A DNA stretch of 64,000 bases from Gammaproteobacteria bacterium (lineage in GTDB: Bacteria; Pseudomonadota; Gammaproteobacteria; Ga0077536), in the NCBI GenBank assembly GCA_021773835.1, contig JAJFJQ010000057.1, positions 1 to 64,000 on the forward strand, in the 5' to 3' direction. The position numbers and the translations under genes are program-made. Position 1 is the first letter of the stretch, and each line of letters opens with the position of its first letter. The notes below the pieces were generated by a model. It did no database searches and was not told the DNA's origin. It worked only from the letters and a program-made list of their open reading frames with translations. This document shows, in pieces, positions 42,581-63,449 of this stretch.

Positions 42581-44673
<2,093 letters not shown>

Positions 44674-44697
44674 TGGCGATAATAGATCCGTAACCGT

Positions 44698-45366: not shown

Positions 45367-45537
45367 TACTGGAACCGCCGCCGAGTTTGGATAAAGTTCG
45401 CGCCGGGCTGAAGACTATCACTGATGCGCGTGTTTCTCACACCTGGTATAGCAAGATCCAGCGCTCGGGACGGCGTCTGTTATTACCAAACAAAGGCACC
45501 GGGGAAACGCTACCGCTTTGATGCCGGTTGTTGCGGA

Positions 45538-47950: not shown

Positions 47951-48025
47951 GTCTTCCTCAAAACGTTATATTAAACATGAAATATACTTCATAACTATAT
48001 GATTTTATTTGATTGATGCCAAGCA

Positions 48026-48994: not shown

Positions 48995-49040
48995 GGGATC
49001 CGGTTTTCCAACGCGGGCTTGGATGTGATTGAGGCCGCTT

Positions 49041-49613
49041 CTAGTCTTCTTTCGCACGCGACACGTATTCGCCCGTACGCGTATCGATTTTGAGCAAGTC
49101 TTGTTCCTCGACGAACAATGGGACTTTGACAACAGCGCCCGTTTCAAGTGTGGCCGGTTTCGTACCACCGGAGGCGGTATCGCCCCGCACACCCGGATCG
49201 GTTTGGGTGATTTTGAGGATCGCAAAATTAGGCGGTACCACGGCGATTGGTTCGTTATTCCACAATGTCACCGTGCAGCGCTCCTGGCCCTTGAGCCACC
49301 TGACCGCATCGCCCATCGCAGCCGCGGGGGCCGTCACTTGTTCAAATGTTTCAGTGTTCATGAAGGTCCACGTCTCGCCGTCGCTGTACGAATACTCTAA
49401 TTCCGTCTCGATCACGTCCGCAGCTTCGACCGATTCGCCCGACTTGTAGGTCTTCTCGATCACTCGTCCCGTCATCAGGTTCCGGATCTTGATCCGGTTG
49501 AACGCCTGGCCCTTACCCGGCTTTACGATGTCGTTCTCGATGATGCTACACGGATCACCATCGATCATTATCTTTAGACCGGATTTAAATTGGTTAGTAC
49601 TGTATGAGGCCAT
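49041..49613 (-). CDS. efp: Translation elongation factor P
   Basis: 190 residues, three beta-barrel domains. It rescues ribosomes stalled at polyproline. The modification site is Lys34 in KPGKGQAF, and the flanking residues match the lysylated (EpmA/EpmB) subtype rather than the rhamnosylated (Arg32) one. Downstream on the same strand is epmA; epmB starts 34 bp away on the other strand. The trio is therefore a complete modification module. Confidence 0.97.
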
Positions 49614-49647
49614 TACAATGAATTCTCGGTTGATTTAAGGCGGACGT

Positions 49648-50649
49648 ATGATAGCGCGAAGCGTGCGGCAGGTTCAGCAGCCAGATTGGATTTCGGAGCT
49701 CCGTGCTGCTTATTCTGACCCATTGCGTTTGCTCCAGGATCTGCACGTCCCGGCGACGGATGCCGACCTGCTGCCGGCAGCGAGTCGTTTCCCTTTCCGT
49801 GTGCCGCGCCCATTCGTCTCACGCATGCGCCCAGCCGACCCAAACGATCCATTGTTATTGCAGGTCTTACCGCGCACACCAGAAGTGGTACGTACACCGG
49901 GCGCGAGCATCGATCCCGTTGGCGATCTCGAAAGTCGCGTATCCCCGGCATTGATCCACAAGTATCGTGGTCGCGCGCTGATAATAATGAGCGGCGGTTG
50001 TGCAATTAACTGTCGCTATTGCTTTCGACGTCACTTCCCGTACTCAGATGCCGTCGGCACAGCCCAGATTGAGCACGCTATCGAGGCGGTGCGAAGCGAC
50101 CATTCGATCACCGAAATAATCCTAAGCGGTGGCGATCCCTTGCTCCTGAAAGATGACCATCTCGGAGAAATCATCACGCGGCTAGCGGCTATCCCGCACC
50201 TCACTCGTCTGCGGATCCACACCCGATTGCCGGTCACCATTCCGTCCCGGATCACCGTTCCACTCCTGCATGCGTTAACTGAGACCAAGCTCAAACCCGT
50301 GATGGTGTTTCACATTAATCACCCGAACGAAATCGATGCCGAGCTCGACGCGGCGCTAGGACGCTGCCACAGCGCGGGGATCCCGTTGCTAAATCAATCC
50401 GTGCTATTGCACGGAGTCAATGACGATGCGGCCACGCTGGCTGAGCTCTCTGAATCGTTGTTCGCGGCGTCGGTCCTTCCATACTATGTACACCTGCTCG
50501 ATGCTGTCGTCGGCGCCGCTCATTTCGACGTCGCGGAGTCGCGGGCGATCTCGATCGCAGCGGAACTACGCAGACGCGTCCCGGGATATTTAATGCCGCG
50601 ATTCGTACGTGAAATCGCCGGCGAAAACGCGAAAACGCCGATCGCGTAG
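49648..50649 (+). CDS. epmB: EF-P beta-lysylation enzyme EpmB (radical SAM lysine 2,3-aminomutase)
   Basis: 333 residues. It converts (S)-alpha-lysine to (R)-beta-lysine for EF-P modification, using S-adenosylmethionine and PLP. The radical SAM cysteine motif is CAINCRYCFRRHFPY (CxxxCxxC, ~116-124), with SGGDPLL, RIHTRLPVTIPSR, and the C-terminal LLNQSVLLHGVNDD and PYYVHLLDAV segments. It lacks the large C-terminal extension of clostridial KamA. It is divergent from efp, separated by 34 bp. Confidence 0.95.
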   Translation: MIARSVRQVQQPDWISELRAAYSDPLRLLQDLHVPATDADLLPAASRFPFRVPRPFVSRMRPADPNDPLLLQVLPRTPEVVRTPGASIDPVGDLESRVSPALIHKYRGRALIIMSGGCAINCRYCFRRHFPYSDAVGTAQIEHAIEAVRSDHSITEIILSGGDPLLLKDDHLGEIITRLAAIPHLTRLRIHTRLPVTIPSRITVPLLHALTETKLKPVMVFHINHPNEIDAELDAALGRCHSAGIPLLNQSVLLHGVNDDAATLAELSESLFAASVLPYYVHLLDAVVGAAHFDVAESRAISIAAELRRRVPGYLMPRFVREIAGENAKTPIA

Positions 50650-50759
50650 TTCAGCGACGCCGACCATCGGGGTCGCGCCATTATTGCCGCCACCTCTTGA
50701 CGGCCTGAGGGGCTTGGCATAGCTTGCTGTTATCAGTATCACACCTCGGAGATGCCCCA

Positions 50760-51347
50760 GTGCTCGACCTATTGTTCGACTGGCAAGCCGCCTTCAGCAT
50801 GGGCACCGACGTTGCCGTCTATCTCATCATGGCGCTGACGGGCACGACTTTTTTCGTGCTACGCCTGCTCTTAGCCTTGTTTTTTGGTGCCGACACCGAC
50901 GTCGACCCGGATATCAGTCACGATGCGGGCTCAGACTCCTCGTTCGGATTTTTTTCACTCTTATCGATACTCGCTTTTTTTATGGGCTCGGGCTGGATGG
51001 GCCTAACTTGCCGCGTCGATTGGGATATGAATGGTCTCGCGTCGGCCGCGGCGGCTGCCGCATTCGGTTTCGGGATGATGATGCTCGCCTCCGGCTTGAT
51101 GTTTACCGCACGCAAACTCAATCGGACGATCGACTACGACCTCAATACCGCTGTTGGTAGAACCGCTCGGGTCTATATGACGATACCAAAGCAAGGCGCC
51201 GGACGCGGACAAGTGGAGGTCGATGTATCGGGCCGGCGCAAAGTCCTCGAAGCCATTAGTAATGGTGAGAAACTAGACCAGTTCTCCAGTGTCCGTGTCG
51301 TCGAGGTACGCGACGATCAAACCCTCGTCGTCGAATCCGCGGATTGA
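50760..51347 (+). CDS. yqiJ: YqiJ/NfeD-like OB-fold inner-membrane protein
   Basis: 195 residues from GTG 50760, chosen for CGGAG nine bases upstream over the earlier TTG 50724. Three membrane helices (~12-33, 58-76 and 85-107) are followed by an OB-fold domain (AVGRTARVYMTIPKQGAGRGQVEVDV) typical of NfeD/YqiJ. These proteins pair with flotillin-type SPFH proteins; here the partner yqiK follows after 71 bp. Likely acts in membrane micro-domain or envelope stress functions. Confidence 0.87.
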   Translation: MLDLLFDWQAAFSMGTDVAVYLIMALTGTTFFVLRLLLALFFGADTDVDPDISHDAGSDSSFGFFSLLSILAFFMGSGWMGLTCRVDWDMNGLASAAAAAAFGFGMMMLASGLMFTARKLNRTIDYDLNTAVGRTARVYMTIPKQGAGRGQVEVDVSGRRKVLEAISNGEKLDQFSSVRVVEVRDDQTLVVESAD

Positions 51348-51418
51348 TTTTCCTCGCGTCGAAGAACCGATAATTAAAATGCTAATAAACGAGAAACAGA
51401 CCTAACAAGGAAACCAGC

Positions 51419-53029
51419 ATGGATATATCCCCCGGACCATTAATGCTTGTTGTCTCCGTCGTTCTGATCATCAGCTTCTTCTTTGTGATGCTGGTGATGC
51501 AGTACAAACGGTGCCCGTCGAACCGGGTACTGGTGGTCTACGGAAAGATCGCCGGCGCGCGCGCCGCGCGCTGTATTCATGGCGGCGGAACGTTCGTCGT
51601 GCCGTTGATGCAAAGTTATGCCTACATGTCGCTCGAACCGATGACGATCGACATTGAACTTCAAAGTGCGCTGTCGAAAAAGAACATCCGGGTAAACGTC
51701 CCCTCCACGTTTACTATCGGCATCTCTACGATACCTGAGATCATGAACAATGCCGCCGAGCGCCTCCTTGGTCTGGACGACGTTGCGATCGCGCATCAGG
51801 CGCGCGATATCATTTTGGGCCAAATGCGCCTCGTGATTGCCACCCTGTCGATCGAGGAGATCAACCAAGACCGCGAAAAATTTCTCGACTTGGTCAACAA
51901 GAACGTCAACTTCGAGCTAAATAAAATTGGTCTCGAAATGATCAACGTCAATATCCGCGACATCACCGACGAATCCGGATACATCGAGGCGTTGGGTCGC
52001 AAGGCCGCATCAGAAGCCGTCAACCAGGCCAAGGTGGAAGTCGCCGCTGCAGATCGTGAAGGCTCGATTGGTTCCGCCACCGCACAACGCGAAATGGATG
52101 TCGAGGTTGCAGAACAAAATTCACAGTCGGCCACGGGGCAAAAACAGGCCGAACGAAACCAACGTATTGAAGTCGCAAAACTCGAAGCCGAGGGTGTAGC
52201 GGGTGAAGCCAGCGCACAACGTAGTAAGGAAGTAGCGGTCGCCGAGCAAACTGCGCTATCGAGAGAAGGTCAGAAGAAGGCCGAAGCGCACCAGCGTGTG
52301 GAGATTGCAGAACTAGAAGCGGCGGCGATTAAAGGCGAGAACGAATCCAAGGCCAAAATGGCCGACTACAATGCGCAGTTATCCGAGCGCGAGGCAGAGG
52401 CAAAACGACGCGGCGAAGTCGCCATGGCAAACGCGGAACGCGACGTCTTATTAGCACAAAAAGACGAAGAGATTGCGTTGCTCGAGAAGCAGCAGGTTGC
52501 ACAACAAGTCGTAGAACGGACGAAGGTCGAGATCGACGCAGAGGCTGAAGCCGAGCGCCGACGACGCATCGCCGCCGGTGAAGCCGACGCGGTGCTGATG
52601 CGTTTTACTGCGGAAGCCGAAGGCACACGCAAACTACTCGAGGCGAAAGCCGAAGGGTATAAAGCACTAATGGCCGTATGCGAAGACCGCAAAGATCTGG
52701 CTCCCGCATTACTGATCATCGAGCAGCTACCTGAGCTCATCCGTGAACAAGTTAAGGCAATCCAAAACCTGCAGATCGACAAGATCACCGTATGGGATTC
52801 GGGTGATTCGAGCGGTAGCGGTGATTCGACGACTGCGGGATTTCTTAAGGGAATGATTGGCGCGCTTCCTCCAGTGCATGAACTCGCGCGCCAGGCAGGA
52901 ATAGAATTACCCGATATTCTTGGAAAAGTCGCTGAGATTGAGCCTTCAAGCCCGGTTGGATCCGCACCACCGCTAGCGTCAGCCGGCACGGCACCCGACG
53001 GCACAGGCTCCGATCAAGCGAATGCCTAG
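51419..53029 (+). CDS. yqiK: Flotillin/SPFH-family protein YqiK
   Basis: 536 residues. A single N-terminal membrane helix (~8-30), the SPFH domain (~45-200; NRVLVVYGKIAG, LGRKAASEAVNQAKVEVAAADREG), long Glu/Ala-rich heptad coiled coil (~190-440; repeated AEQ/GQKKAE segments with similar ~30-residue blocks) and a C-terminal tail. The coil contains near-repeats (VAEQNSQSATGQKQAE, VAEQTALSREGQKKAE). Flotillins form ring or cage assemblies in the membrane. Ribosome site AAGGA precedes ATG 51419. It forms a unit with yqiJ and ends in a terminator at 53131. Confidence 0.93.
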   Translation: MDISPGPLMLVVSVVLIISFFFVMLVMQYKRCPSNRVLVVYGKIAGARAARCIHGGGTFVVPLMQSYAYMSLEPMTIDIELQSALSKKNIRVNVPSTFTIGISTIPEIMNNAAERLLGLDDVAIAHQARDIILGQMRLVIATLSIEEINQDREKFLDLVNKNVNFELNKIGLEMINVNIRDITDESGYIEALGRKAASEAVNQAKVEVAAADREGSIGSATAQREMDVEVAEQNSQSATGQKQAERNQRIEVAKLEAEGVAGEASAQRSKEVAVAEQTALSREGQKKAEAHQRVEIAELEAAAIKGENESKAKMADYNAQLSEREAEAKRRGEVAMANAERDVLLAQKDEEIALLEKQQVAQQVVERTKVEIDAEAEAERRRRIAAGEADAVLMRFTAEAEGTRKLLEAKAEGYKALMAVCEDRKDLAPALLIIEQLPELIREQVKAIQNLQIDKITVWDSGDSSGSGDSTTAGFLKGMIGALPPVHELARQAGIELPDILGKVAEIEPSSPVGSAPPLASAGTAPDGTGSDQANA

Positions 53030-53102
53030 ATTCAGGGCCCACTAAGCGGCCTCAGCGCACTAAAGTTTGTCTTCGTTCGCGCCGCAATAGGCTATGAACG
53101 GA

Positions 53103-53165
53103 GACCCTCCCTCCCATTAATCCGTTCGCTGGAGGGTCGGTTGCATAACCGATCCTCCCTTTTTT
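53103..53165 (+). terminator. Intrinsic terminator after yqiK with a competing upstream arm
   Basis: GGAGGGTCGGTT (53131-53142) pairs with 53147-53158 (12 bp, one G-T, loop GCAT), followed by six T (53160-53165). An upstream GACCCTCC (53103-53110) is perfectly complementary to GGAGGGTC (53131-53138), so it could form an exclusive alternative hairpin. No gene on the plus strand follows, so an attenuator role is uncertain; the arm may simply strengthen folding. Confidence 0.85.
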
Positions 53166-53207
53166 ATTTGCGCTGGCCCGCGACGACCTAGCCGCTCCAA
53201 GCACGGT

Positions 53208-54089
53208 CTATAGCGATTCGTAGAACGCCTTCACCGCGGTACCGATCGCGTGCGGCGAGTCCTCTTGTAAAAAGTGGATCCCGTCGACGGTAATTTCCTG
53301 CTGATTAGGAAAAGTGCGTGTGTAATCCCGAACACTCCCCGTAATGTTTAACCCGGGATTGCCGTTGATGAACAGCTTCGGCAACGCGGTCGAGCCCCGT
53401 AGCCATTGCGCATTGGCGTCGATCATCGCGCAGGAATCCGGGGGTATGCCTTCAAGCGGTATTTCGCGCGACAAGTCTAAAGTGGGTTGACGACTCGCTT
53501 CGCTATCACGGTATGGAGCACGGTAACGTTCCATCTCCACGTCGGTAAACTTACGTGCTGTACCGAGCACGAGAAATCCTTCCACGATCTGATTCTCCTG
53601 GAGTATCAGCTTTTCTCCTTCATCGCCTTTTAATGCACGTACGAAGTCACGCGTCTCATCCGCCCACTCAGACCACATCATGGTGCGAACGATACCTTCC
53701 ATATGAACGATGCCGCGCACCCTGTCCGGATGACGCCGCGCCCAATCGACGCCGAGTACGACACCCCAATCTTGAAGGACAAGACAGACATCATCGAGTT
53801 CAAGCGCGTCGAAAAAAGCATCGAGAAAGGCGGCCTGTTCAAACAAACGATAACAATTTCGAGGCGAACGACTTGAATCACCCATCCCAATCAAATCCGG
53901 CGCGACGCAGCGTGCGATTGGTTCGACATGAGGAATAATATTTCGCCAGAGGTAGGAACTTGTTGGGTTGCCGTGCATAAAAACACAGGGTCGGCCGCTA
54001 CCGGTATCCACATAGGCCATCTCGGCGTCACGCGTGGTGACTCGATGACGCACATAGTTATCCTCGGCACTTATATTTTGTTCAGTCAT
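53208..54089 (-). CDS. Haloalkane dehalogenase (alpha/beta hydrolase)
   Basis: 293 residues. It should cleave carbon-halogen bonds with water, releasing halide and an alcohol. The LinB-like set is complete: HGNPTSSYLW with halide-binding Asn41, nucleophile Asp107 in LQDWGVVLG with halide-binding Trp108, candidate acid Glu131 in HMEGIV, and His272 in GIHFLQEDSP. These positions match LinB (Asn38, Asp108, Trp109, Glu132, His272) nearly residue for residue. No signal peptide. It is the last gene of the LLM-RidA-RidA operon, 61 bp after RidA copy A. Alternatives are epoxide hydrolase or other relatives, but the Trp/Asn halide pair favours a dehalogenase. Confidence 0.88.
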   Translation of the reverse strand: MTEQNISAEDNYVRHRVTTRDAEMAYVDTGSGRPCVFMHGNPTSSYLWRNIIPHVEPIARCVAPDLIGMGDSSRSPRNCYRLFEQAAFLDAFFDALELDDVCLVLQDWGVVLGVDWARRHPDRVRGIVHMEGIVRTMMWSEWADETRDFVRALKGDEGEKLILQENQIVEGFLVLGTARKFTDVEMERYRAPYRDSEASRQPTLDLSREIPLEGIPPDSCAMIDANAQWLRGSTALPKLFINGNPGLNITGSVRDYTRTFPNQQEITVDGIHFLQEDSPHAIGTAVKAFYESL

Positions 54090-54150
54090 TGTTAAATACC
54101 ACTTAATCTATAAACTTCCCGTAATCAAAATCCACCAATTCCTGCCATCC

Positions 54151-55458
54151 CTATTCGTCGTCAGGAATGATCGCCAACAAATCAATAACAACCTTGCATC
54201 CTGGTACGAATAGCGGCCCCGGAAGCCGCACAGTTGTACTCGCCGGTGGCGCGTCAGGAAACTCCTCCGCCCATGCGACGAAGGAAGTGAAAAACTCCCG
54301 AAAATCCGTATACAAACCGCGTCGACGCACGAGATTGTCACGCGTGGTACCGGCAGCCTTGCAGATCGCATCGATGTTTTTTACGACGTACCGCACATCG
54401 AGTTCCGCGGGTGATTCGTAGTAAGGGAAATTGGGATCCACCCGCGCCTCTGGGGCGAGTCCGTTCTTATAGTCAGTCGCCATCTGGCCCGAAAAAAACA
54501 AGAGGTTTCCGGCCTGTACTGCCTGTGGTTCATGCGTTAACGGCGTTGGTGCGGCATCGGTTTGGATTGTCCGCTTCGGTGGACCGTCACCCGGAATATA
54601 GGCAACGAGGTTAATCGCGATGCGCAATCCCGGCACACCAAGGCCCGAGACCGGCGCAACGATGCGTGCAGGCGGATCGGTCGGGAAGTATTTTTTCCAC
54701 ACTTGTTCAAAGCGAAAAAAGTCATCGCGATCGGTCATATAGACCTCCGCTTTGACGACATCGGCCATAGTTGCACCGCCCTCGGCCAAGATCGTTTTAA
54801 GTTTGTCGAGAATATATTCGGTTTGTAATCGACCGATTTCCGCGTAGTAAATAAAATTCGGATCGAGCGCCGCCTCTGGGGCTACGCCATGGTCGAAATC
54901 CGTCGCCGTGATAGAAGCTGTAAAGATATATTGACCCGCCTTTACCCCATAGTTAAACAATGGCTTATCGTCGAGTCCGCTCGGAACGGGTTTTGGCAGT
55001 GACGAAGGATTCAGAAACTCAATTGACTCGCCTTTTTGCGGGACGTAACCAATGGCGTCGACTTCTAGATTGCAATTGGGTACTGGCAGTTCTTCCAGCA
55101 GGATCGTAGCGCTTGGCGGTGCACCGGCGGGACCGCAAAGATCTTGCACGACGCGTTTGGTCCCATGGAGTTCGCTAGCATTGTCTTGATAGAGGATCAA
55201 AAACAGGCAGTTCTCCAACGATGACCCGCCCGCCTCCAACAACGTGCTGATGTTTTTCATCACGTAGTCTGTTTGGCGCTCGATATTGGAGCCATGATGT
55301 GGAAACGCCGCATTGATTTTCGCCGTCGGCGGAACCCCGGTAACAAAATCTGACGGCACCTGTCCCGACACATAAACAAATTGGCCGGCCTTGATGATTG
55401 GGGAATAGGCGACACGTGGTGCCGGCATCGATTTCGGGAAGATTGCTTCTTTTTTCAC
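54151..55458 (-). CDS. Triple-repeat RidA-like protein, copy A
   Basis: 435 residues from GTG 55458 with GGAGG before it. It is built from three RidA/YjgF-like domains of ~135-145 residues (VAYSPIIKAGQFVYVSGQ; NYGVKAGQYIFTASITATDFD; QAVQAGNLLFFSGQMATD are the repeat openings). In the middle repeat the catalytic-type Arg is kept (PPARIVAP), while the first has Ser (PPSATI) and the third Ser (PPASTT), judged by aligning the LP and VExxA-like segments. RidA enzymes hydrolyse enamines/imines, and RutC acts in pyrimidine breakdown. The catalytic Glu is not obvious. Three-domain RidA proteins are unusual. Confidence 0.85.
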   Translation of the reverse strand: MKKEAIFPKSMPAPRVAYSPIIKAGQFVYVSGQVPSDFVTGVPPTAKINAAFPHHGSNIERQTDYVMKNISTLLEAGGSSLENCLFLILYQDNASELHGTKRVVQDLCGPAGAPPSATILLEELPVPNCNLEVDAIGYVPQKGESIEFLNPSSLPKPVPSGLDDKPLFNYGVKAGQYIFTASITATDFDHGVAPEAALDPNFIYYAEIGRLQTEYILDKLKTILAEGGATMADVVKAEVYMTDRDDFFRFEQVWKKYFPTDPPARIVAPVSGLGVPGLRIAINLVAYIPGDGPPKRTIQTDAAPTPLTHEPQAVQAGNLLFFSGQMATDYKNGLAPEARVDPNFPYYESPAELDVRYVVKNIDAICKAAGTTRDNLVRRRGLYTDFREFFTSFVAWAEEFPDAPPASTTVRLPGPLFVPGCKVVIDLLAIIPDDE

Positions 55459-55541
55459 GATAACCTCCGGGGCTAGTTATTATGCGATCGGTTTTTCGTT
55501 ACTCGTAATTACATAGAACTCCTTATGGAACTCACTAATTC

Positions 55542-56849
55542 CTATTTAGGATCCGGCACCATCGCCATAAGATCTATCACGACCTTACACCCGGGAACCA
55601 TCGCCGGACTTGGTACGCGCACGGTCGTGCTTGCTGGCTGATCGGTTGGAAACTCTTCTCCCCAAGTTAGAAACGAAGTAAAGAACTCCGTGAAGTCGGT
55701 ATACAGGCCACGCCGGCGCACCAGATGATCACGTGTGATCCCGGCCGCCGCACAAATCGCATCGATGTTCTTCACGATATAGCGTACCTGTCGCTCAGAG
55801 GCAGAGCTGAAATAGGGGAAATTCGGATCAACTTGTGCTTCGGGCGGCACACCGTTTTCAAAGTCAGACGCCATCTGACCCGAAAAGAACAATAAATTGC
55901 CCGCTTGCACGGCCTGCGGCTCATGAATGATAGGGATCGGCGCAGCGTCGGTGTGGATCGTGCGTTTCGGCGGTCCATCACCGGGCACATAAGCAACAAG
56001 ATTAATGGCAATGCGGATCCCCGGCACACCAAGGTCGGTCACCGGCACGATATTACGGGCCGGCGGATCGGTTGGGAAATATTGCTTCCATACCTGCTCA
56101 AATCGATAAAAGTCATTCTGATCGGTGAGGTAAATATCGGCTTTGGCAACATCCGCTAAGCTTGCACCACCTTCCGCCAGAATAATCTTCAGCTTCTCCA
56201 AGATATATTCGGTTTGTAACCTTGCGCTCTCGGCGTAATAGATGAAATTAGGATCCATCGCCGCTTCGGGTGCGACCCCGTTATCAAAATCAGTCGCCAT
56301 GATTGCGCTGGTAAAAATATACTGTCCAGCTTTGACCGCGTAGTTAAACAGCGCACGGTCGTCCAGTCCGGTCGGGATCGGCTGCGGTAACGAGGGCGGA
56401 TTTAGCACCTCTATTGATTCACCGTTTTCCGGTATGTACGCGATTGCGTCAACTTCCAGGATGCAAAATGGTATTGGCAATTCTTCAACCACGATCGCGG
56501 CGTGAGGGGGTACGCCGTTAGCACCAAACACGTCTTGCATAACCCGCGCGCAACCGTATAGCTCAGCGGGATCGGTCTGGTAGACCCCTAGCAAAAGACA
56601 ATTGTCCATTGACGACCCACCGGCATCCAACAGGGTACGCAGGTAGCCTAAGACGAATTCAGTCTGTCGTTCGATATCCGAGCCATGATGCGGAAACTCG
56701 GCGTTGATTTTCGCCGCAGTGGGGACACCCTTTGAGAAATCTGACGCCAGCTGTCCGGATACGTAGACGAACGGCCCGGCTTTTACGAGTGGGGAATAGG
56801 CGACGCGCGGACGCGGCATGGACTCTGGGAAAACAACTTCTTTTTTCAC
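55542..56849 (-). CDS. Triple-repeat RidA-like protein, copy B
   Basis: 435 residues from GTG 56849 with AAGGAG nine bases upstream. It is a close paralogue of copy A along its whole length, with identical length and matching repeats. The first-repeat Arg position is His (PPHAAIV), the middle keeps Arg (PPARNIVP) and the third has Ser (PASTTV). The two genes are 83 bp apart in the same direction, so this looks like a tandem gene duplication that kept three-domain architecture. It probably forms hetero- or homo-oligomers with copy A. Preceded by the flavin monooxygenase gene (30 bp gap). Confidence 0.85.
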   Translation of the reverse strand: MKKEVVFPESMPRPRVAYSPLVKAGPFVYVSGQLASDFSKGVPTAAKINAEFPHHGSDIERQTEFVLGYLRTLLDAGGSSMDNCLLLGVYQTDPAELYGCARVMQDVFGANGVPPHAAIVVEELPIPFCILEVDAIAYIPENGESIEVLNPPSLPQPIPTGLDDRALFNYAVKAGQYIFTSAIMATDFDNGVAPEAAMDPNFIYYAESARLQTEYILEKLKIILAEGGASLADVAKADIYLTDQNDFYRFEQVWKQYFPTDPPARNIVPVTDLGVPGIRIAINLVAYVPGDGPPKRTIHTDAAPIPIIHEPQAVQAGNLLFFSGQMASDFENGVPPEAQVDPNFPYFSSASERQVRYIVKNIDAICAAAGITRDHLVRRRGLYTDFTEFFTSFLTWGEEFPTDQPASTTVRVPSPAMVPGCKVVIDLMAMVPDPK

Positions 56850-56879
56850 CGGGATCTCCTTGGGCTTATTGCTCGTGGG

Positions 56880-58037
56880 CTAGTTTGCGGCGTTACTGTC
56901 GGTCGGTTGTGAATTCCTGTTGGATTGAGCGGTTGAATGATTTAAAGCTTGATTAAAAGCCGGCATAACCTTTGTGGCCATGAGCTCCATCGAACGGCGG
57001 GCGAGTGGCGCATCGGCCCAGTCGTGCCCCGCATAAACAAGTGTACCGAAATCGCCGGTAGTCTCGCGGAATGCCAATAGCTGCTCGACAACACTGTCCA
57101 CGGTACCGGCGATAACGAGACTGTCCATCACGTAATCGTGCGTTACGGCGGAATCCGGCATCTCGGGGTCATGTTTGAATAGCTCCGGCCGACCGTTGCC
57201 GATGAGTTTGCGCATGATATTGCGATAATAGAAGCCATAGGGACCGTTAGGATCTTTGCCGTGACGCTTAGCTGTCTGCTCGTCATCGGCGACGAAGATA
57301 CTTTTTGCCACGCGCCAGTCACTCGGATCGGAACGGCGCCCCACCTGGTTACAGCCTTCGACAAACTTCGACCAATGCGTCGCGACCCATACCGGTTGCA
57401 GAAAATTAGCCGAGATGAAGCTCCAGCCGCGCGCGCCGGCACGGGTGACACTACTTGAGTGTGGGGACATTGCTGCAATGACGATTGGCGGATGAGGTTT
57501 TTGATACGGCTGCAGGATCACCCCCTGTCCGATCTCGCTATCCAAGGTACGCGCAGTCGTAATTTCCCAGAATTCACCCTTGATATCGTACGGTGGATCA
57601 CTGGCCCAGATTTCAAGCACCTGATCGATCGCCTCGACGAACATGGCGTTACGATCTCGCTCGAGGTTGCCGAACACCTCGGCATCCGAACGCAGTCCTC
57701 CTGGACTAATACCAAACAAAAAGCGTCCTTCGAGCATCGTGTCGATCATGGCAACCTGCGCCGCCACTTGGGCCGGGTGATTATTCGGCATATTTACAGT
57801 GCCGCTACCAAGCTTGATCTGTTTTGTTGCGTCCGCGAGGCTCGCGCAGAACATTAACGACGAGGTCACCGTCTCAGCGACGTCGGTAACGTGTTCGCCA
57901 AAGAACGCTTCGCTAAATCCAAGCGCGTCTGCCAGCAGCGCGGCTTCGCGATCCTCCTTTAGCGTTTCTAGGTAGTTACGGCCGGGCGGGTGCACCGGCA
58001 TCGTGAAGTAGCTGAGCTTGACGTCCGACGATTGCAT
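56880..58037 (-). CDS. Luciferase-like (LLM) flavin-dependent monooxygenase
   Basis: 385 residues from ATG 58037; the longer frame from 58148 adds a non-family segment. TIM-barrel luciferase-like fold: SYFTMPVHPPGRNYLETLKEDREA, LADALGFSEAFFGEH, LGSGTVNMPNNHPAQVAAQVAMIDTMLEGRFLFGISPGG, and PPIVIAAMSPHSSSVTRAGARGWSF. This is the type of the limonene-1,2-monooxygenase-like group (FMNH2 with O2). No matching flavin reductase gene is visible nearby. It opens the operon LLM, RidA-B, RidA-A, dehalogenase. The substrate is unknown. A Ser/Asn-rich tail (TAQSNRNSQP) follows the barrel. Confidence 0.9.
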   Translation of the reverse strand: MQSSDVKLSYFTMPVHPPGRNYLETLKEDREAALLADALGFSEAFFGEHVTDVAETVTSSLMFCASLADATKQIKLGSGTVNMPNNHPAQVAAQVAMIDTMLEGRFLFGISPGGLRSDAEVFGNLERDRNAMFVEAIDQVLEIWASDPPYDIKGEFWEITTARTLDSEIGQGVILQPYQKPHPPIVIAAMSPHSSSVTRAGARGWSFISANFLQPVWVATHWSKFVEGCNQVGRRSDPSDWRVAKSIFVADDEQTAKRHGKDPNGPYGFYYRNIMRKLIGNGRPELFKHDPEMPDSAVTHDYVMDSLVIAGTVDSVVEQLLAFRETTGDFGTLVYAGHDWADAPLARRSMELMATKVMPAFNQALNHSTAQSNRNSQPTDSNAAN

Positions 58038-58262
58038 AACCCGTAGGCCGCCTATCCATCGATTAATGTGTATCAATTCTATGACGGTGCCAGACAATGG
58101 GCAATCGACACGCATCGCGCCAGCGGTGCGTCGGGCGAACGGTTCCAAACTGAAGGCTGTCCGTCGATCGCAGCATCCAGCATGGATTTGTACGGCGCTT
58201 GTTCGTCGGCTGCGCTATAGTGCGCTTTAAACTGCCAGGCCACTCACGGGAGGTCATCGCTC

Positions 58263-58775
58263 ATGCTCGGTCGCAAAAAAAACTATTCAAGCTTTGAGAA
58301 ATTGTCTTTCTTCGCGAACAGCGCGAATTTCCTTGCCGTCCTGCTAGTCGCTATCTGGATCGGTGGGTGCTCTCCGAGCGACGCAACCCCGGGGCAATGG
58401 CTACGCGGAAATGCCGTCGATAGGACACCAGACGATTGGTCCTTCACGGACGAGTTTAAAGAGATCTATATAGAGGTTAAGACGCCCTATTTCATCCCAC
58501 ACTCAGTGACGATCTGGTGTGCGCAAGTTAAGGGTAAATTGTTTATCGGTGCGCGCGATCCGGAATCAAAGAATTGGCCCGGCTGGGTAGATAAAAACGG
58601 TGAGGTGCGACTTAAAATCGGCGAGAATATCTACGCGGTAGCCGCATCTCCGTTATCCGATGAGGCCGCCGTTGCGCCGGTTCGAGCCGCCTACTCAGCT
58701 AAGTATGATTTACCACCGCCTACCGACGACGCGCCGAGTACTATGCGTTATTGGGCAATCGTGGATCGTAATTAA
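58263..58775 (+). CDS. Predicted lipoprotein, 170 residues
   Basis: Ribosome site GGGAGG precedes ATG 58263. A hydrophobic helix ending AIWIGGC (lipid Cys ~37) and then a mature part of ~133 residues with FFxxP and ARDPESKNWPGWVDKNGEVRLKIGENIYAVAASPLSDEA. That stretch loosely resembles split-barrel flavin/deazaflavin-binding proteins (DUF385/nitroreductase-like), but I do not assign a function. It is divergently oriented from the LLM operon, with only 225 bp between starts. Confidence 0.7.
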   Translation: MLGRKKNYSSFEKLSFFANSANFLAVLLVAIWIGGCSPSDATPGQWLRGNAVDRTPDDWSFTDEFKEIYIEVKTPYFIPHSVTIWCAQVKGKLFIGARDPESKNWPGWVDKNGEVRLKIGENIYAVAASPLSDEAAVAPVRAAYSAKYDLPPPTDDAPSTMRYWAIVDRN

Positions 58776-58796
58776 TGCGGCGACAACGGTGCCCTG

Positions 58797-59540
58797 TTAC
58801 TTGATTGTGCAGTTTCTCCGCCGAACCATAGCGGTAGCTAGACACAATACGGCAAACAGCGGATCAATCGCCGGTATCGGAATTACCGCGGCGCCTATCT
58901 CGACCCCTTCATCTGTCATTGCGGTCCATTCGCTTGCGTCAATCAACGTCGTGTAACTAGTGTCAGTGTAAAATCGGATCCCAATCAAACTCGCTGTCGA
59001 ACCGAGGTCAGCACTGGCAAATCCACTATGTTGAATACTACCAGTTGCCCTTAGTATCGCGCCGTGCCGAACGACATCGCCGTTTCCTACCGAACCACCA
59101 ATGTTACGGCGACCCGCTGGGGTTTCGTAAAATGTATCGAATCCTCCAAATGACAGGTCATCCTTGTCAATATGACCGTTAACCAGGTTAAACGTCCCAA
59201 AGTCGTCCTCCCCGTGTAACAGCCCTTGTGCTCTTCCGTTGCCAGTTAGGTCGCTAAGCATCACTGAACCGCTTAACCCCCAGACAAAACTCAAATAACC
59301 CGGGGTCGTGGTCGAGATAGTGATCATTGTTGAATAACTCGCGCGGCCTTCAACGCCGCCGTTGGCACTAACGACGTCGACACCGCTGAACGCCGCGCTG
59401 GCGCGCAGTGAGCCTACCGAAGCCGACGCCGATGCGGACCCATTCACCGTCCCGCTGTCTAACAATCCACCATCGACGCTGCTCGCGGCGGCAAAACCAT
59501 CGCCGTCCGGATCGAAGTCTGTTTCCCGCGCCGAGCCCAC
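58797..59540 (-). CDS. PEP-CTERM-like secreted protein, beginning disrupted
   Basis: Ends VIPIPAIDPLFAVLCLATAMVRRR, a PEP-CTERM-type tail (proline motif, membrane segment, basic end). The part from GTG 59540 is beta-rich, Gly/Ser-rich, cysteine-poor. The frame stays open upstream to 59633 and encodes a good signal peptide (LTVFLLLTFFGSSPANA), but a stop lies at 59634-59636 and no ATG, GTG or TTG is in frame. Adding one base to the run of seven A (59620-59626) would join an upstream ATT-initiated stretch (MRFSLLFFLLLTFFG) to this frame. So the gene is frameshifted, phase-variable, mis-sequenced, or starts at a rare codon. Confidence 0.65.
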   Translation of the reverse strand: MGSARETDFDPDGDGFAAASSVDGGLLDSGTVNGSASASASVGSLRASAAFSGVDVVSANGGVEGRASYSTMITISTTTPGYLSFVWGLSGSVMLSDLTGNGRAQGLLHGEDDFGTFNLVNGHIDKDDLSFGGFDTFYETPAGRRNIGGSVGNGDVVRHGAILRATGSIQHSGFASADLGSTASLIGIRFYTDTSYTTLIDASEWTAMTDEGVEIGAAVIPIPAIDPLFAVLCLATAMVRRRNCTIK

Positions 59541-59636
59541 CTGCCCCCGGAAATCGACGTCACTAAATGCGAAAACAACTGCAGCATTCGCCGGAGAGCT
59601 GCCGAAGAAGGTAAGCAGTAAAAAAACAGTAAGCTA

Positions 59637-60089
59637 AATCGAATCGGAGCGACCCTGTCCTTACTGTTGGTTAAGGACGCGGATAAACTAGAATGCAATC
59701 TGATGCTCTGCGCTATATTCCCTCTCCCTAGCGGACTAATCGAAAGGGCAGAGTGAGCGCTATCCCTACCTACCAAAGGGACGCTCGCTAGCCCTCAGTT
59801 ATTCACTAAATCCTTACCCGATTGCTTCATTATTATTCGTGTCTTTTGGCGATTATGTACGCTCCCGCAAGATTTGTAATCTGCTACGGCACGCCGGCTG
59901 GAAGATAAAACCGGCAAAATTACCACTAATGTTTTGGAATTGAGCACATCTGGTCGATCGGCGATTTAGCGTACCCAAAGAGCGCGCTTAGCAGTGCACC
60001 TTAAGCTGTTGTGTTGGCACTAATTTCGCAACCGCGCCGCTCATTGGGGACATTGGACGTACGAGCGTTGGCCAATGGCTTACGCGCTG
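59637..60089. other. Non-coding gap with three consecutive hairpins near 59657-59786
   Basis: No convincing gene in 453 bp. Read on the minus strand toward the PEP-CTERM gene, three stems occur in a row: 59755-59786 (GAGCG and TCCC arms, 9 pairs with a bulge), 59706-59753 (CTCTGC/GCAGAG closing a long loop with CCCT/AGGG), and 59657-59678 (GTCCTTA/TAAGGAC, 7 bp). Together they suggest a structured leader. The rest (59790-60089) shows nothing recognisable. Confidence 0.35.
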
Positions 60090-60941
60090 CTACCCAAACA
60101 AGAAACCACGATCTGAAAACGTCGTCGATGCAAAGCCTTCATGCATCGTACGCGACCAAGACAGACCACCACTCGAACCGACAGCCGCACCAAGCGCAAA
60201 CATCATCACATTAAAATGACCACCGTCGTCAGGGTGCGCGATTGTCGATGCCGGCCCTTTGGCACGCCAGTCGATTAGGCTATCGATGTCGTTAGCGGCG
60301 ATTGTCTCTGCTGTCCATTGATCGTAGTCGGCGGCCCAGGTTGGCGGCTGCTCGAAATGCCCAAACGTCCCAAGATTATGGGTCACCGTTCCGCTGCTGA
60401 TGACCAGCACTCCTGCTTTGCGCAACGGCGCGAGCGCTTGTCCGAGTTCAAAAAGACGCGAGGCAGGTACAAATGGCATCGCTACTTCCACTACTGGTAT
60501 GTCCGCGTCTGGGAATAAGTGCATGAGACCCATCCACACGGTGTGGTTGAAGCCTTTGTGTTCGTCGCGCGAGTAGGCAAACTTCGCATCTTCAAGTCCA
60601 GCGTAGACATTGTCTGCAAGCGCCTTAGCACTTGGCGGGTGGTAGCGAATGTCTTTAACAAGCTTCTGAAACCGTCGCGGGAAACTCCAGCGCGCAATCC
60701 CACTAGACGCCAGGGTTATATTTCGCGCGCGCACGTGCGGGGTAAATACGATTATCCCGCTTGGTTGTGTCGGTAGCCGACTCGCCATATCAAACAATTC
60801 GCGCTTACGTTTTTTATCGATGGCGAGCCACGGACCGCCGTGTCCGTAAAATAGGCTTGGCATAGGAGTCGTTGCGGCGAAAGTTGGCCGCGCAACTACC
60901 GCTGCGGCGGAAGCGATCAACAAAGAACGGCGCGTGATCAC
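60090..60941 (-). CDS. Tat-exported class III extradiol-dioxygenase-like protein
   Basis: 283 residues from GTG 60941, chosen because the GTGA overlaps the preceding stop (coupled) and because the next residues form a Tat-type signal (TRRSLLIASAAAVVARPTFA). The mature part belongs to the LigB/DODA-type family: FYGHGGP (~38-44), GFNHTVWMGL, and SSGTVTHNLG with the Fe-binding histidines in order. Members cleave catechols or related rings; here export is predicted, which is unusual for this family. It is fourth in the HyuB-HyuA-cytochrome operon. The substrate is unknown. Confidence 0.85.
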   Translation of the reverse strand: MITRRSLLIASAAAVVARPTFAATTPMPSLFYGHGGPWLAIDKKRKRELFDMASRLPTQPSGIIVFTPHVRARNITLASSGIARWSFPRRFQKLVKDIRYHPPSAKALADNVYAGLEDAKFAYSRDEHKGFNHTVWMGLMHLFPDADIPVVEVAMPFVPASRLFELGQALAPLRKAGVLVISSGTVTHNLGTFGHFEQPPTWAADYDQWTAETIAANDIDSLIDWRAKGPASTIAHPDDGGHFNVMMFALGAAVGSSGGLSWSRTMHEGFASTTFSDRGFLFG

Positions 60942-61438
60942 TGTTCGTCCGTCCGTCGATGGCACCCAAAACACGAAAATCCTAGCCCGGTTGTCGGGTC
61001 ATATTGCGGTACACCCATCAACCGCGCCATTGTTGGCGTTATGTCGTCGCGTTTGAAACGTTGCAGCGGCGTAAGCGTTGCACCAGCTTCGTAGAGCGCT
61101 CGTACACGGCTCGGCTTAAGTGGTTTGATGTCCGAATTCGCTCGATTGTAGCCTTCGGATTCAGCATTTTCGCCATGGCAACTGGCGCAGGTTAATTCTG
61201 GGGTCGGTGTTTTATAGAATGCTTGGAATTTCTCCATCATCGTCGGGTGAACCAAAAATGTCATTTGCGAATGACGTCGCTCGAACGATAAATATTGCCA
61301 CTCATTGTCTGCAGGAAGCGCTACCTCGCCAGATTGGTCATCGCCGGAAACCGCAGGAGCAATGATGCAAAAAGTAAGACACAGGATCCATATTCCAAAG
61401 TTTCGCTGAAAACTATTCAGTGATACGCAGAAATCCAT
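60938..61438 (-). CDS. Di-haem cytochrome c, 166 residues
   Basis: A signal-like N-terminus (GIWILCLTFCIIAPAVSG) and two CxxCH haem-binding sites: CASCH (~90) and CFGCH (~162, four residues from the end). Met ligands are possible (MEKFQ, MARLMGVP). ATG 61438 was chosen; a further ATG at 61447 is possible. It overlaps the hyuA end by 26 bp and the dioxygenase start by 3, so it is translationally coupled to both. It may deliver electrons from or to the exported dioxygenase. The short spacing between haem 2 and the end is odd. Confidence 0.82.
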   Translation of the reverse strand: MDFCVSLNSFQRNFGIWILCLTFCIIAPAVSGDDQSGEVALPADNEWQYLSFERRHSQMTFLVHPTMMEKFQAFYKTPTPELTCASCHGENAESEGYNRANSDIKPLKPSRVRALYEAGATLTPLQRFKRDDITPTMARLMGVPQYDPTTGLGFSCFGCHRRTDEQ

Positions 61439-63449
61439 ACTCGTCAACCCGCATCTGTTGTCCAGGATGGATCAGCGTAGTCGAAGTCGCTTCTTCAACG
61501 ATTAGAGGCCCATCGATCGTCGCACCTGGTGGCAATTTGTCGCGTTCGAAAACGCGCGCCTCATGCTGGCCATCCTCTGCAAAGTTGACTCGCCGACGTG
61601 GACGTTCTGCGGCTTCAATCGAGCGGCCATCGCTGTTTAAAGGTTTCAAAGCCGGTCGCGGCACGCTCGCGTTAACGGTTACACGGTAGGTTACAAACTC
61701 TACCGGCGTGTCTTCGAGCCTAAAGGTATAGGTCTTTTCGTGCGCAATGTGAAATTCGTCGAGGATGTTATCCATCGTTGCCGATTGAGGGTCAACGACG
61801 ATGGTTACCGCGTGTTCTTGGCCGAGGTAGCGCAGATCGATACGGGTCTCGAAACGCAGCTTCGCGTTACGGTCTTCAGTTTCGAAATATTCGCGTCCTT
61901 GCTTCTCCAATGCGGCGATTATCGATCGAACGTGCGCGATGTCAATGTCGTCCGCACGCCGAAGTTCGGTCTGCATAAAATCGGAACGTGGCTCGGTGGC
62001 GAGCATGCCCCAGGCGGAGAACAGGCCCGGGTAGAGCGGGATGATGACTTCCTTCACTCCGAGTTCGCGTCCGAGTGGTGCGCCATGCATTGCGCCGCCA
62101 CCGCCACCGACGACTAGCGAGAAATCGCGGGGGTCATGACCACGTTGAATCGACACCAGCTTCAAAGCGTTTATCATGCTGGCATCGACCGTGCGGATCA
62201 CAGCGACCGCGGCTTCTTCGATTGATGTATCAAGACCGTCGGCGATCTTCTGCATTGCCTTGCGTGCGCACTCGAGGTCCAGTGCAACTCGCCCATCGGC
62301 AAAATTTTCGGGATTCAACACGCCTGAAATCAATTTCGCGTCGGTTACGGTCGGCTCCTCGCCGCCACGTCCATAACACGCCGGGCCCGGCTCGGCACCG
62401 GCACTGACCGGACCAACTTTCAGCAGGCCCGCTTTATCGAACCACGCGATCGAGCCACCGCCTGCCCCAATCTCAACGATATCGACCACTGGGATCCGTA
62501 ACGGATAACCAAAACGCGTACGGCTGTACTCGAGACGATATTCAGTCGTTACCCGCGGGCTACCACCCTCAATGGTTGAACACTTGGCAGTGGTCCCGCC
62601 AATATCGAGATAAATGATCTTCGGCTCGCCACAGGCCTCGCCAACCAGTGCAGCACCGTTACAACCCGCGGCCGGTCCCGATTCCATCAATGCGATCGGA
62701 TGCTCTTTTGCCCAGGCAAACGTCGTCGTCCCCCCATTCGACTGCATGGCGAACAGGGGGCAGCGTACATCGTGCTCCTGTAATGCGACTTCTAGGCGGT
62801 CGAAGTAACGTTGAATTATCGGTTGTACATAGGCGTTAAGCACCGCAGTCGTTGCACGTTCATATTCCCGCCACTCGCGCGTAATCTCGAAGCTTGCGGT
62901 TACCGTCACCTCCGGCATCTTCTCCCGGAGATACGCGGCCGCGGCCGCTTCGTGCTCCGTCGCGGCGTAGCTATGTAGGAATTGGATCGCGATCGCCTCA
63001 ACGTTTTCGGCGCGGCAGCGCTCAACCACATGATCGAGTTCTTTTATGTTGAGCGCTTGCATGACATTGCCTTGGGCATCGACCCGTTCATCGACTTCGA
63101 AGCGCAACAGACGCGGTACAAATGGACGTTCTTTATAGAAACGTAGGTTGTAGAGATCGGGACGATTGCCGCGTGCGATTTCGAGTACGTCGCGAAAACC
63201 TTTGGTTGTAACCAGAGCGGTGCGCGCGCCCTTACGCTCGGTGATGGCATTGATCACGGTCGTCCCGCCGTGAACGAAAAAATCCACGTCGCTATGGTCG
63301 AACGCGCCGAGTTCTATGGTATCGACAACACCTTGGGTTAGATCCCGCGGCGTGGTGAGGGATTTCGCGACTTGAAGGGCGCCAGAATTCTCGTCGAAAT
63401 AGACGAGATCGGTGAATGTTCCACCGATGTCGGTTGCTAGACGACCCAC
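61413..63449 (-). CDS. Hydantoinase/5-oxoprolinase subunit A (HyuA/OplaH-like)
   Basis: 678 residues from GTG 63449. ATP-dependent cyclic-amide-ring opening family: N-terminal ATPase motif TDIGGTFTDLVYFDEN (~5-20), HGGTTVINAITERKGA, the IDIGGTTAKC nucleotide loop, DIVEIGAGGGSIAWFD, and CYGRGGEEPTVTDA. It belongs to the HyuA/HyuB group that splits N-methylhydantoin, 5-oxoproline or acetone-carboxylase-like substrates. Its partner HyuB is encoded one base upstream (stop at 63451-63453). Substrate specificity cannot be read from sequence. Confidence 0.93.
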   Translation of the reverse strand: MGRLATDIGGTFTDLVYFDENSGALQVAKSLTTPRDLTQGVVDTIELGAFDHSDVDFFVHGGTTVINAITERKGARTALVTTKGFRDVLEIARGNRPDLYNLRFYKERPFVPRLLRFEVDERVDAQGNVMQALNIKELDHVVERCRAENVEAIAIQFLHSYAATEHEAAAAAYLREKMPEVTVTASFEITREWREYERATTAVLNAYVQPIIQRYFDRLEVALQEHDVRCPLFAMQSNGGTTTFAWAKEHPIALMESGPAAGCNGAALVGEACGEPKIIYLDIGGTTAKCSTIEGGSPRVTTEYRLEYSRTRFGYPLRIPVVDIVEIGAGGGSIAWFDKAGLLKVGPVSAGAEPGPACYGRGGEEPTVTDAKLISGVLNPENFADGRVALDLECARKAMQKIADGLDTSIEEAAVAVIRTVDASMINALKLVSIQRGHDPRDFSLVVGGGGGAMHGAPLGRELGVKEVIIPLYPGLFSAWGMLATEPRSDFMQTELRRADDIDIAHVRSIIAALEKQGREYFETEDRNAKLRFETRIDLRYLGQEHAVTIVVDPQSATMDNILDEFHIAHEKTYTFRLEDTPVEFVTYRVTVNASVPRPALKPLNSDGRSIEAAERPRRRVNFAEDGQHEARVFERDKLPPGATIDGPLIVEEATSTTLIHPGQQMRVDEYGFLRITE

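Follow-up and report, generated by a model that had tools for sequence, protein, structure and literature searches.

The window, by which we mean the whole stretch of 64,000 nucleotides analyzed here, holds an LLM-class flavin monooxygenase gene followed on the same strand by two genes for Rid proteins of three domains each (3x-Rid). Our leading reading, to which we give roughly even weight, is that a gammaproteobacterium rich in oxygenases carries a catabolic block of LLM and Rid genes, in which oxidation by the LLM would be followed by imine or enamine hydrolysis by the 3x-Rid proteins, and that this block lies beside an unrelated haloalkane dehalogenase (HLD). We regard this as a plausible catabolic pairing and not as an established new pathway. 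Gene content, gene order, residues and synteny were read directly from the genomes, and the features concerned are as follows.

53131-53158, no strand assigned: hairpin between convergent genes, 12 pairs (7 G-C), loop of 4
53208-54089, minus strand: haloalkane dehalogenase (HLD; PRK03592; PDB 7pw1, 2.5e-83; full pentad; synteny)
54100-61412, no strand assigned: segment missing at the colinear site of genome G003 (blastn blocks)
54151-55458, minus strand: 3x-Rid protein b (Rid-b), 435 aa (PF01042, TIGR00004; 72% identity to Rid-a)
55542-56849, minus strand: 3x-Rid protein a (Rid-a), 435 aa, three YjgF/Rid domains (PF01042, TIGR00004)
56880-58037, minus strand: LLM-class flavin monooxygenase, 385 aa (PF00296, Bac_luciferase, 6.4e-41; PDB 4uwm, 2.1e-31)
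61413-63449, minus strand: hydantoinase A subunit (HydA; PF01968, 2.6e-93)

As an earlier note on this DNA had described, four minus-strand genes (LLM, two Rid, hydrolase) are closely spaced, with gaps of 30 bp (LLM/Rid-a), 83 bp (Rid-a/Rid-b) and 61 bp (Rid-b/HLD). The block is flanked by plus-strand genes at 51419-53029 and 58263-58775. The longest reading of the LLM gene opens at a TTG (58148), and homology runs from near the ATG at 58037. The hairpin has a T run 3' of it on the plus strand and is a possible candidate terminator from a class that occurs near chance (8 sites vs. 6.2 in shuffles). The promoter scan gave a single 9/12 match at 58104-58076, from a scan that was itself close to chance overall (5 vs. 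3.6), and the RNA fold of the 3' spacer is not notable (z -1.24). No block-edge repeats were found in 53000-61700 beyond the tandem Rid duplication and the internal Rid repeats, and the four plasmid records matching the query covered 29-33% of it and carried no 3x-Rid.

The nearest solved structure to the LLM is 3,6-diketocamphane monooxygenase (4uwm), by sequence (2.1e-31), by profile (3e-34) and as the top Foldseek match. Model pLDDT falls below 50 at positions 113-125 and 154-178, stretches that likely shape the pocket. Among the matches listed (the best 25 of 29), no NCBIfam LLM model reached its own cut-off for this protein. Its branch in the LLM tree measures 0.48 against a median of 0.13; so long a branch may mean that it acts on another substrate than its relatives do. 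The protein had been proposed to be of the RutA class, an assignment we could not uphold: 4uwm is nearest, and the protein is absent from the 31 matches in its own genome to the RutA profile (TIGR03612) at E<=1e-10. E. coli RutA scores 34.7 bits against it, and the best TIGR03612 matches in the source genome, C7 (394 bits) and C21 (372 bits), like all others there, stay under the cut-off of 498.3.

Each Rid protein contains three stretches matching PF01042 (Ribonuc_L-PSP; 1.8e-45 in Rid-a and 1.4e-41 in Rid-b), which bears out the three-domain architecture first suggested, and this was the only Pfam family matched at E<=0.01, with no AtzD-family match. Both proteins pass the cut-off of TIGR00004 (Rid detoxifying hydrolase; 133.8 and 126.5 bits against 106.25), but their placement in the RutC class has to be withdrawn, with scores of 91.5 and 80.5 bits against 169.1 for the RutC equivalog (TIGR03610). 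The AlphaFold model of Rid-a has a pLDDT of 85.2 and a pTM of 0.88. Their 72% identity and sister placement in the tree (support 99/99) point to a tandem duplication. According to the available parts of the sources, the Rid arginine is required for imine/enamine deamination (PMC4433059, PMC8113886). This catalytic residue is found in domain 2 (R265) in 17 of 18 sequences and in domains 1 and 3 in none of the 18, a confinement from which we predict that no fused trimer has more than one canonical deaminase site, as opposed to three. Even that single site is not the textbook one, since the canonical glutamate is replaced by Ala in domain 2 in 15/18, while domain 1 keeps a glutamate in 17/18. Other residues kept in domains 1 and 3 are E132, H309 and E310 (each 17/18) and R378 (18/18).

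Such asymmetry could mean that 3x-Rid is no longer an imine deaminase and has taken a new catalytic role as an asymmetric pseudo-trimer, as cyanuric acid hydrolase did and, by its fold, chorismatase too. In the whole-chain structural comparison chorismatase ranks first (Z 26.1, rmsd 2.9-3.0 over 284-286 residues, 12-16% identity), domains 1 and 3 keep other residues while lacking the arginine throughout, and YjgF concatenation is described in the available part of PMC3758960 as having yielded the ring-opening hydrolase AtzD. However, the domain 2 arginine is retained in all sequences but one, domain 2 closely matches RutC (Z 19.8, rmsd 1.6 over 130) as well as other single Rid structures (listed at Z 16.7-19.1), and both proteins lie above the Rid detoxifying hydrolase cut-off, so we consider the loss of deaminase function unlikely.

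The pairing of LLM with 3x-Rid recurs within the same genome in a second operon (L009), composed of an LLM, an alpha/beta hydrolase, a CocE/S15-like hydrolase, a 3x-Rid and a further LLM, with gaps of 88, 96, 54, and 19 bp. Its parts are not orthologous to those of the window (LLM 22%, Rid 29-32% identity), which indicates that a similar gene set was assembled separately. Both 3x-Rid loci of the source genome have an LLM profile match no more than 205 bp away and an alpha/beta hydrolase match no more than 1.94 kb away. Of random 1.3-kb positions, 0.65% have an LLM within 300 bp together with a hydrolase within 2.2 kb and 7.1% an LLM within 300 bp, by thresholds chosen after the loci were known; 61 of 65 rows entered this control, the four left out being second pieces of genes already counted. 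The hydrolase counted at the window locus is the HLD itself, so that, once the HLD is set aside as a passenger, this locus scores on its LLM alone.

Of 17 3x-Rid loci, at least 5 have an LLM within 3 kb and at least 8 have one within 5 kb (seven others truncated); these are lower bounds, LLM and hydrolase positions at high-GC loci having been called by tblastn with three LLM queries at >45 bits. An LLM is near 3x-Rid in G028, G016 and three Binatota-type loci, and the 6 kb around the 3x-Rid of G001 and G020 yielded none. The gene maps of high-GC loci came from a home-made ORF scorer and contain shadow frames in places (for example L061 gene 11, L088 gene 5). The Binatota-type neighbors of 3x-Rid comprise an FAD amine oxidase, a DAO-type oxidase, amidohydrolases, and a formamidase, and those at L047 a 2OG-Fe(II) oxygenase and an ACC deaminase (488 bits, cut-off 392), both of which fit C-N chemistry. 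Clustering of Rid genes with FAD amine oxidases is likewise reported in the available parts of PMC4433059 and PMC8113886. Elsewhere a fatty-acid transporter and a cupin, with two glycosyltransferases somewhat further away, adjoin 3x-Rid (L058), and further loci have a P450 or an extradiol dioxygenase alongside. The window Rid proteins are 63-65% identical to those of Binatota-type loci vs. 56-59% to same-family loci, identities that hint at horizontal gain from Binatota; the tree, with three separate clades and an unsettled root, does not support such a transfer.

It could be argued that LLM and 3x-Rid, in a genome so dense in catabolic genes, are chance neighbors and serve separate processes. 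With 126 LLM matches in 6.1 Mb an LLM beside 3x-Rid is not rare, as the 7.1% of random positions also conveys, and the neighbors of 3x-Rid differ among the other loci. Nevertheless, the genes share a strand at both loci of this genome, with gaps as short as 30 bp and 19 bp, and an LLM is again nearby in G028, G016, and the three Binatota-type loci, which makes coincidence quite unlikely in our judgment. The proximity of an oxygenase to proteins of the imine-hydrolase type probably carries meaning.

The hydrolase at the 3' end of the block is a different matter. It matches Pfam Abhydrolase_1 (3.9e-23) and the NCBIfam haloalkane dehalogenase model PRK03592 (366 bits, cut-off 241), and the complete LinB-type site that had been noticed is indeed present: the pentad N41, D107, W108, E131, and H272, whose roles we take to be those in LinB, aligns with solved HLDs and is invariant in four orthologues. 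A RutD-class identity is contradicted by the PRK03592 match, and E. coli RutD gave no match to the HLD at E<=1. In the same-genus genome G003 a largely colinear contig lacks the LLM and both Rid genes. The missing segment also spans four further genes (the 58263 gene on the plus strand; the 58797 gene, a LigB-like and a cytochrome-like gene on the minus strand). There the blastn blocks 53207-54099 and 61413-62096 adjoin each other, and the HLD starts 176 bp behind the HydA stop. The C-terminal part of HydA, 88% identical, is found upstream of the HLD in L116, and the two other HLD orthologues, in G001 and G032, have acyl-CoA-type genes or another hydrolase as neighbors. The G003 arrangement rules out a conserved four-gene operon, and the four-gene system of the earlier note, which had made linkage in relatives decisive, falls with it, the full set being unlinked in G003 and the HLD placed elsewhere in G001 and G032. 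These sites also leave the HLD as no ground for a halogenated LLM substrate. It looks like a positional passenger and an older neighbor of HydA, and its place at the 3' end of the block follows from the position of the block between HLD and HydA.

A coherent four-step pathway would have the LLM oxidize a halogenated nitrogen compound, the HLD remove halogen from that compound and Rid clear imines. It could call on the tight one-strand spacing, the complete HLD active site, an alpha/beta hydrolase no more than 2 kb from 3x-Rid at each of the two genome loci and the appearance of the LLM hexachlorobenzene monooxygenase (7cza, 6lr1) far below the top of the fold list, but it is very unlikely given the HLD neighborhoods of G003, G001, and G032, the lack of HLD matches >45 bits at the remaining 3x-Rid loci (some truncated) and an HLD-family match (E<=1e-30) in 31/58 genomes compared with full-length 3x-Rid in only 10/58. 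Behind the epmB-type radical-SAM gene, neither HLD nor HydA was found within the available sequence of G001, G002, G011, G012, and G028 (the contigs of G001 and G002 end about 4.9 kb and 2.4 kb past it), which indicates that the region varies. A distant LLM (24-26%) lies behind this gene in G012.

Under the preferred reading of an LLM-Rid block, for which we infer every reaction, the substrate and any co-transcription, the LLM would act as a type II Baeyer-Villiger-like FMN monooxygenase, judging by its nearest solved relative, on a compound that probably bears nitrogen. The two 3x-Rid proteins, as covalently linked Rid pseudo-trimers, would then hydrolyze the resulting imine or enamine to ammonia and a carbonyl compound. 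The HLD is possibly co-transcribed, yet would not be needed. Of the pathway of oxidation and imine clearing originally envisaged, the oxygenase/Rid pairing thus stands, backed by the second operon, the random-position control and some relatives, and the role of the HLD is lost. As for an undescribed system, three-domain Rid proteins were already named “3x-RidA” (Niehaus et al., 2015; available text of PMC4433059), and what remains is the LLM and 3x-Rid pairing. Among the papers listed in our literature searches, none combined RidA, luciferase-like monooxygenase and hydantoinase, and none dealt with this gene combination.

Rid proteins are known chiefly as imine scavengers that protect metabolism, and RutC is a committed pathway enzyme for uracil. 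A fused Rid with one arginine site, kept in oxidative and C-N catabolic neighborhoods in two groups far apart and present as a tandem pair next to an LLM, would make Rid proteins committed pathway enzymes more widely, and Rid-linked LLMs would indicate nitrogen-bearing substrates and offer a handle on large LLM expansions such as the 126 matches here. A bolder and rather unlikely extension is a dedicated oxygenase-deaminase pair, with the fused asymmetric pseudo-trimer as a specific ring-opening or deaminating catabolic enzyme for the product of a type II Baeyer-Villiger-like LLM. If true, each Rid pseudo-trimer would combine one arginine site with two remodeled sites and would be, in gammaproteobacterial and Binatota-type genomes, one more repurposed chain of three YjgF units besides cyanuric acid hydrolase and chorismatase.

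Among known systems, the Rut pathway also encodes an LLM-superfamily monooxygenase, a Rid protein and an alpha/beta-fold hydrolase together, and the RutC fold is matched by domain 2 of the window proteins, as are other Rid proteins. It differs in that the window LLM is not of the RutA class, the Rid proteins are fused and below the RutC cut-off, and the hydrolase is an HLD. Membership was rejected on these three comparisons and on the absence of RutB, RutE, and RutF from the block, which is closed by plus-strand genes; against the compared proteins E. coli RutB had no match and RutE and RutF none below E 0.1, and RutD matched the second operon's alpha/beta hydrolase at 74.3 bits. By sequence and predicted fold, the LLM has its nearest solved relative in the type II Baeyer-Villiger enzyme 3,6-diketocamphane monooxygenase, at 23-26% identity in the Foldseek rows. 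The HLD, with its full pentad and a score above the family cut-off, is a predicted LinB-like haloalkane dehalogenase that no tested feature distinguishes. Chorismatase leads the whole-chain fold matches of 3x-Rid, at 12-16% identity, a likeness that implies no common function. The cyanuric acid hydrolase AtzD is, in the available part of PMC3758960, a single chain of likely three concatenated YjgF units, and it differs in that Ribonuc_L-PSP is the sole Pfam match of the window proteins. The 3x-RidA proteins of PMC4433059, whose available text gives them neither a function nor an LLM linkage and does not contain “monooxygenase” or “luciferase”, share with the window proteins three tandem Rid domains in a single chain, expected to form a covalently linked trimer unit. 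The likeness to those proteins, of which EF_0115 is the named example, is one of three-domain architecture; the domains of the window proteins are asymmetric, with the arginine in the middle one only.

Four minus-strand genes form a block at 58037-53208, separated by 30, 83 and 61 bp in the order of transcription:

58037-56880, minus strand, luciferase-type flavin monooxygenase (LLM)
56849-55542, minus strand, protein of 435 aa with three Rid/YjgF domains (3x-Rid)
55458-54151, minus strand, second 3x-Rid protein, also 435 aa with three Rid/YjgF domains
54089-53208, minus strand, alpha/beta hydrolase

Both flanks are plus-strand genes, which close the block. Between the end of the hydrolase gene and the convergent flotillin/Band 7 gene there is a hairpin of 12 pairs. 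Gene content, strand and gaps are as the earlier note described them. The two Rid proteins share 72% identity and are sisters in the tree (support 99/99), which makes them a tandem duplication.

Judged by its sequence, the hydrolase is a haloalkane dehalogenase (HLD) with a complete site, as had been claimed. It scores 366 bits against PRK03592 (cut-off 241), and the 60 solved relatives listed are by name dehalogenases or engineered/ancestral dehalogenase-luciferase proteins, one entry giving only a ligand name. Alignments place N41, D107, W108, E131 and H272, the residues of the catalytic pentad, all in position. The history of this gene differs from that of the LLM and the two Rid genes. One contig of the same-genus genome G003 is colinear with window positions 44002-47505, 48023-50652, 53207-54099 and 61413-62096, in the same order and at 71-78% DNA identity, with HLD starting 176 bp after the stop of the hydantoinase A subunit gene (HydA). 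The segment 54100-61412 is absent at this site, and with it the LLM gene, the two Rid genes and four more; the gene pair 50724-53029 is absent too. As the site lies within a single contig, the missing segment is not explained by a gap between contigs, despite a G003 completeness of 82%. In the relatives search, the sole long 3x-Rid match in G003 is the counterpart of a second locus (see below), and the best match of that genome to the window LLM has 45% identity. Two more HLD orthologues have other neighbors again. The one in G001 (72%) follows a MaoC-type gene, clustered with genes for a cyclase, a CoA-transferase, an aldehyde dehydrogenase and an acyl-CoA dehydrogenase; the one in G032 (76%) follows another alpha/beta hydrolase. 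These differing neighbors place HLD outside any conserved four-gene system, and the proposal of a conserved unit falls. The pair 50724-53029, in a region that varies between relatives, encodes the Band 7/flotillin protein and one of 207 aa that has no Pfam match. Two short genes lie in the segment absent from G003, one without Pfam match (58797-59540) and one with a weak DUF1924 match and, by reading, CxxCH-type motifs (60938-61447).

The best solved relative of the LLM, by sequence and by predicted fold (pLDDT 76.2, weak loops), is 3,6-diketocamphane 1,6-monooxygenase. The RutA class proposed for it was rejected, as it is not among the 31 places matched by the RutA profile in its own genome (E<=1e-10). 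With the LLM outside this class and HLD lacking a conserved link to the LLM and Rid genes, a Rut-like four-step system is not supported. Of the 57 other genomes searched, 17 have LLM matches of 65-71% identity, and all 17 are of the same family (in G028 the match is in two pieces). Among 14 such loci examined, an alpha/beta hydrolase directly adjoins the LLM at five (L061, L088, L089, L095, L096); at another three (L092, L094, L099) the distance is 2-4 kb. The window LLM has a long tree branch (0.48, median 0.13), and its genome keeps another copy on contig C67. In G028 the LLM beside the 3x-Rid (L061, 12276-13360) is split into two overlapping frames, through frameshift or assembly error.

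The part worth keeping is a recurrent pairing of LLM with 3x-Rid, the latter an asymmetric pseudo-trimer. A second operon lies on contig C25 of the window's own genome:

6570-14270 (L009, range including a GrdB-like gene upstream), LLM, alpha/beta hydrolase, CocE/S15-like hydrolase, 3x-Rid, LLM

Its gaps are 88, 96, 54 and 19 bp in gene order, and its parts are not orthologous to those of the window (LLM 22%, Rid 29-32% identity). G003 keeps four of the five genes, the first three 91-94% identical, and in place of the last LLM has a 2OG-Fe(II) oxygenase and an ACC deaminase directly behind the 3x-Rid (L047, 802-4545). ACC deaminase chemistry runs through an enamine, a natural Rid substrate. 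A GrdB-like gene (13362-14270) lies upstream in L009, with HydA and two tandem HydB-like genes, 80% identical, nearby. In the window's genome, measured between profile-match edges, the nearest LLM is no more than 205 bp and the nearest alpha/beta hydrolase no more than 1.94 kb from the 3x-Rid at both loci. Of random 1.3-kb positions, 7.1% lie no further than 300 bp from an LLM, and 0.65% also have an alpha/beta hydrolase within 2.2 kb; this is suggestive only, as the thresholds were chosen after the loci were seen, the window hydrolase counted is HLD, held to be a passenger, and the positions were drawn from contigs only as far as their last match, 4.4 of the 6.1 Mb. Of 17 3x-Rid loci, five had an LLM found within 3 kb: those of the window, C25, G028 and G016, and the G003 counterpart of C25. 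L049, L050 and L053 raise the count to 8/17 at 5 kb; none was found within 6 kb in G001 and G020, and the other seven (L048, L051, L052, L054, L056, L057, L059) have <5 kb of sequence on at least one side. Further genes near 3x-Rids are FAD amine oxidase, DAO-type oxidase, amidohydrolases, formamidase and creatinase-like M24 (L050, L051), and elsewhere BphC-type dioxygenase, quinoprotein dehydrogenase and P450; L058 has a cupin, two glycosyltransferases and a transporter for short-chain fatty acids. Oxidative or C-N bond chemistry accounts for many of these neighbors, though not for all.

The predicted 3x-Rid model (pLDDT 85.2, pTM 0.88) is matched along its whole chain by chorismatase (Z 26.1, 12-16% identity), and its domain 2 by single Rid structures, led by RutC at Z 19.8 (rmsd 1.6 over 130), with YabJ (Z 19.1) tied with it by the rule of the fold-search tool. 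Among 18 proteins, the catalytic arginine stands in domain 2 in 17 (Leu in G046) and never in domain 1 (His, Ser, Thr, Gln or Ala) or domain 3 (Ser; Phe in G046). The canonical glutamate is kept by domain 1 in 17/18 and missing from domain 3; domain 2 has Ala there in 15/18 and Glu in the remaining three, G046 and the second-locus pair. Since Rid trimers have three pockets between adjoining monomers (PMC3758960) and only domain 2 keeps the arginine, no more than one canonical pocket would be left in a chain.

Most likely, the LLM would add oxygen to a substrate, probably nitrogen-bearing, an imine or enamine would arise, and the domain 2 site of 3x-Rid would hydrolyze it. The Rid step is supported by the published requirement of the arginine for imine and 3-aminoacrylate deamination and by the grouping of Rid genes with those for amine oxidases (PMC4433059, PMC8113886). 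Outside the block, the stretch from 61413 to C53:78800 (L085) is consistent with a nitrogen-compound catabolic region, with HydA, HydB, Rieske oxygenase, AMP-binding synthetase, FAA hydrolase, gamma-glutamyltranspeptidase, enoyl-CoA hydratase, a molybdopterin dehydrogenase FAD subunit, an amidase above its cut-off and a cytosine-deaminase-like amidohydrolase under its cut-offs.

Long 3x-Rid matches, spanning most of the query, were found in 10/58 genomes of the relatives search, own included, in 2/369 of the class sample (own and G046, plus one partial match) and in 1/198 of the phylum sample around G402, namely G402 itself. A public genome scan gave long matches at 13/16 loci, the other three being single-domain Pseudomonas matches. 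By placement within the same family, seven of the 13 are gammaproteobacterial, among them one with a Klebsiella title. The other six are of Binatota type: five carry that name, and one, titled Desulfurellaceae bin18, groups with the Binatota-type proteins in the tree. The Klebsiella pneumoniae MAG title (L057, CAMAXW010000111.1) is very likely wrong, its 3x-Rid being placed as in the same-family contig G014:C111.

The three-domain architecture is known, not new: Niehaus et al. named it 3x-RidA and expected a covalently linked trimer unit (PMC4433059). The window's genome, of 6.1 Mb, holds 126 LLM (PF00296) matches, a few of which are pieces, and nine same-family genomes hold from 47 to at least 99 each. 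The largest count named in the relevant passage of the SAR202 paper is 114, by COG (PMC6946804); the present genome shows LLM expansion of that scale in a gammaproteobacterium.
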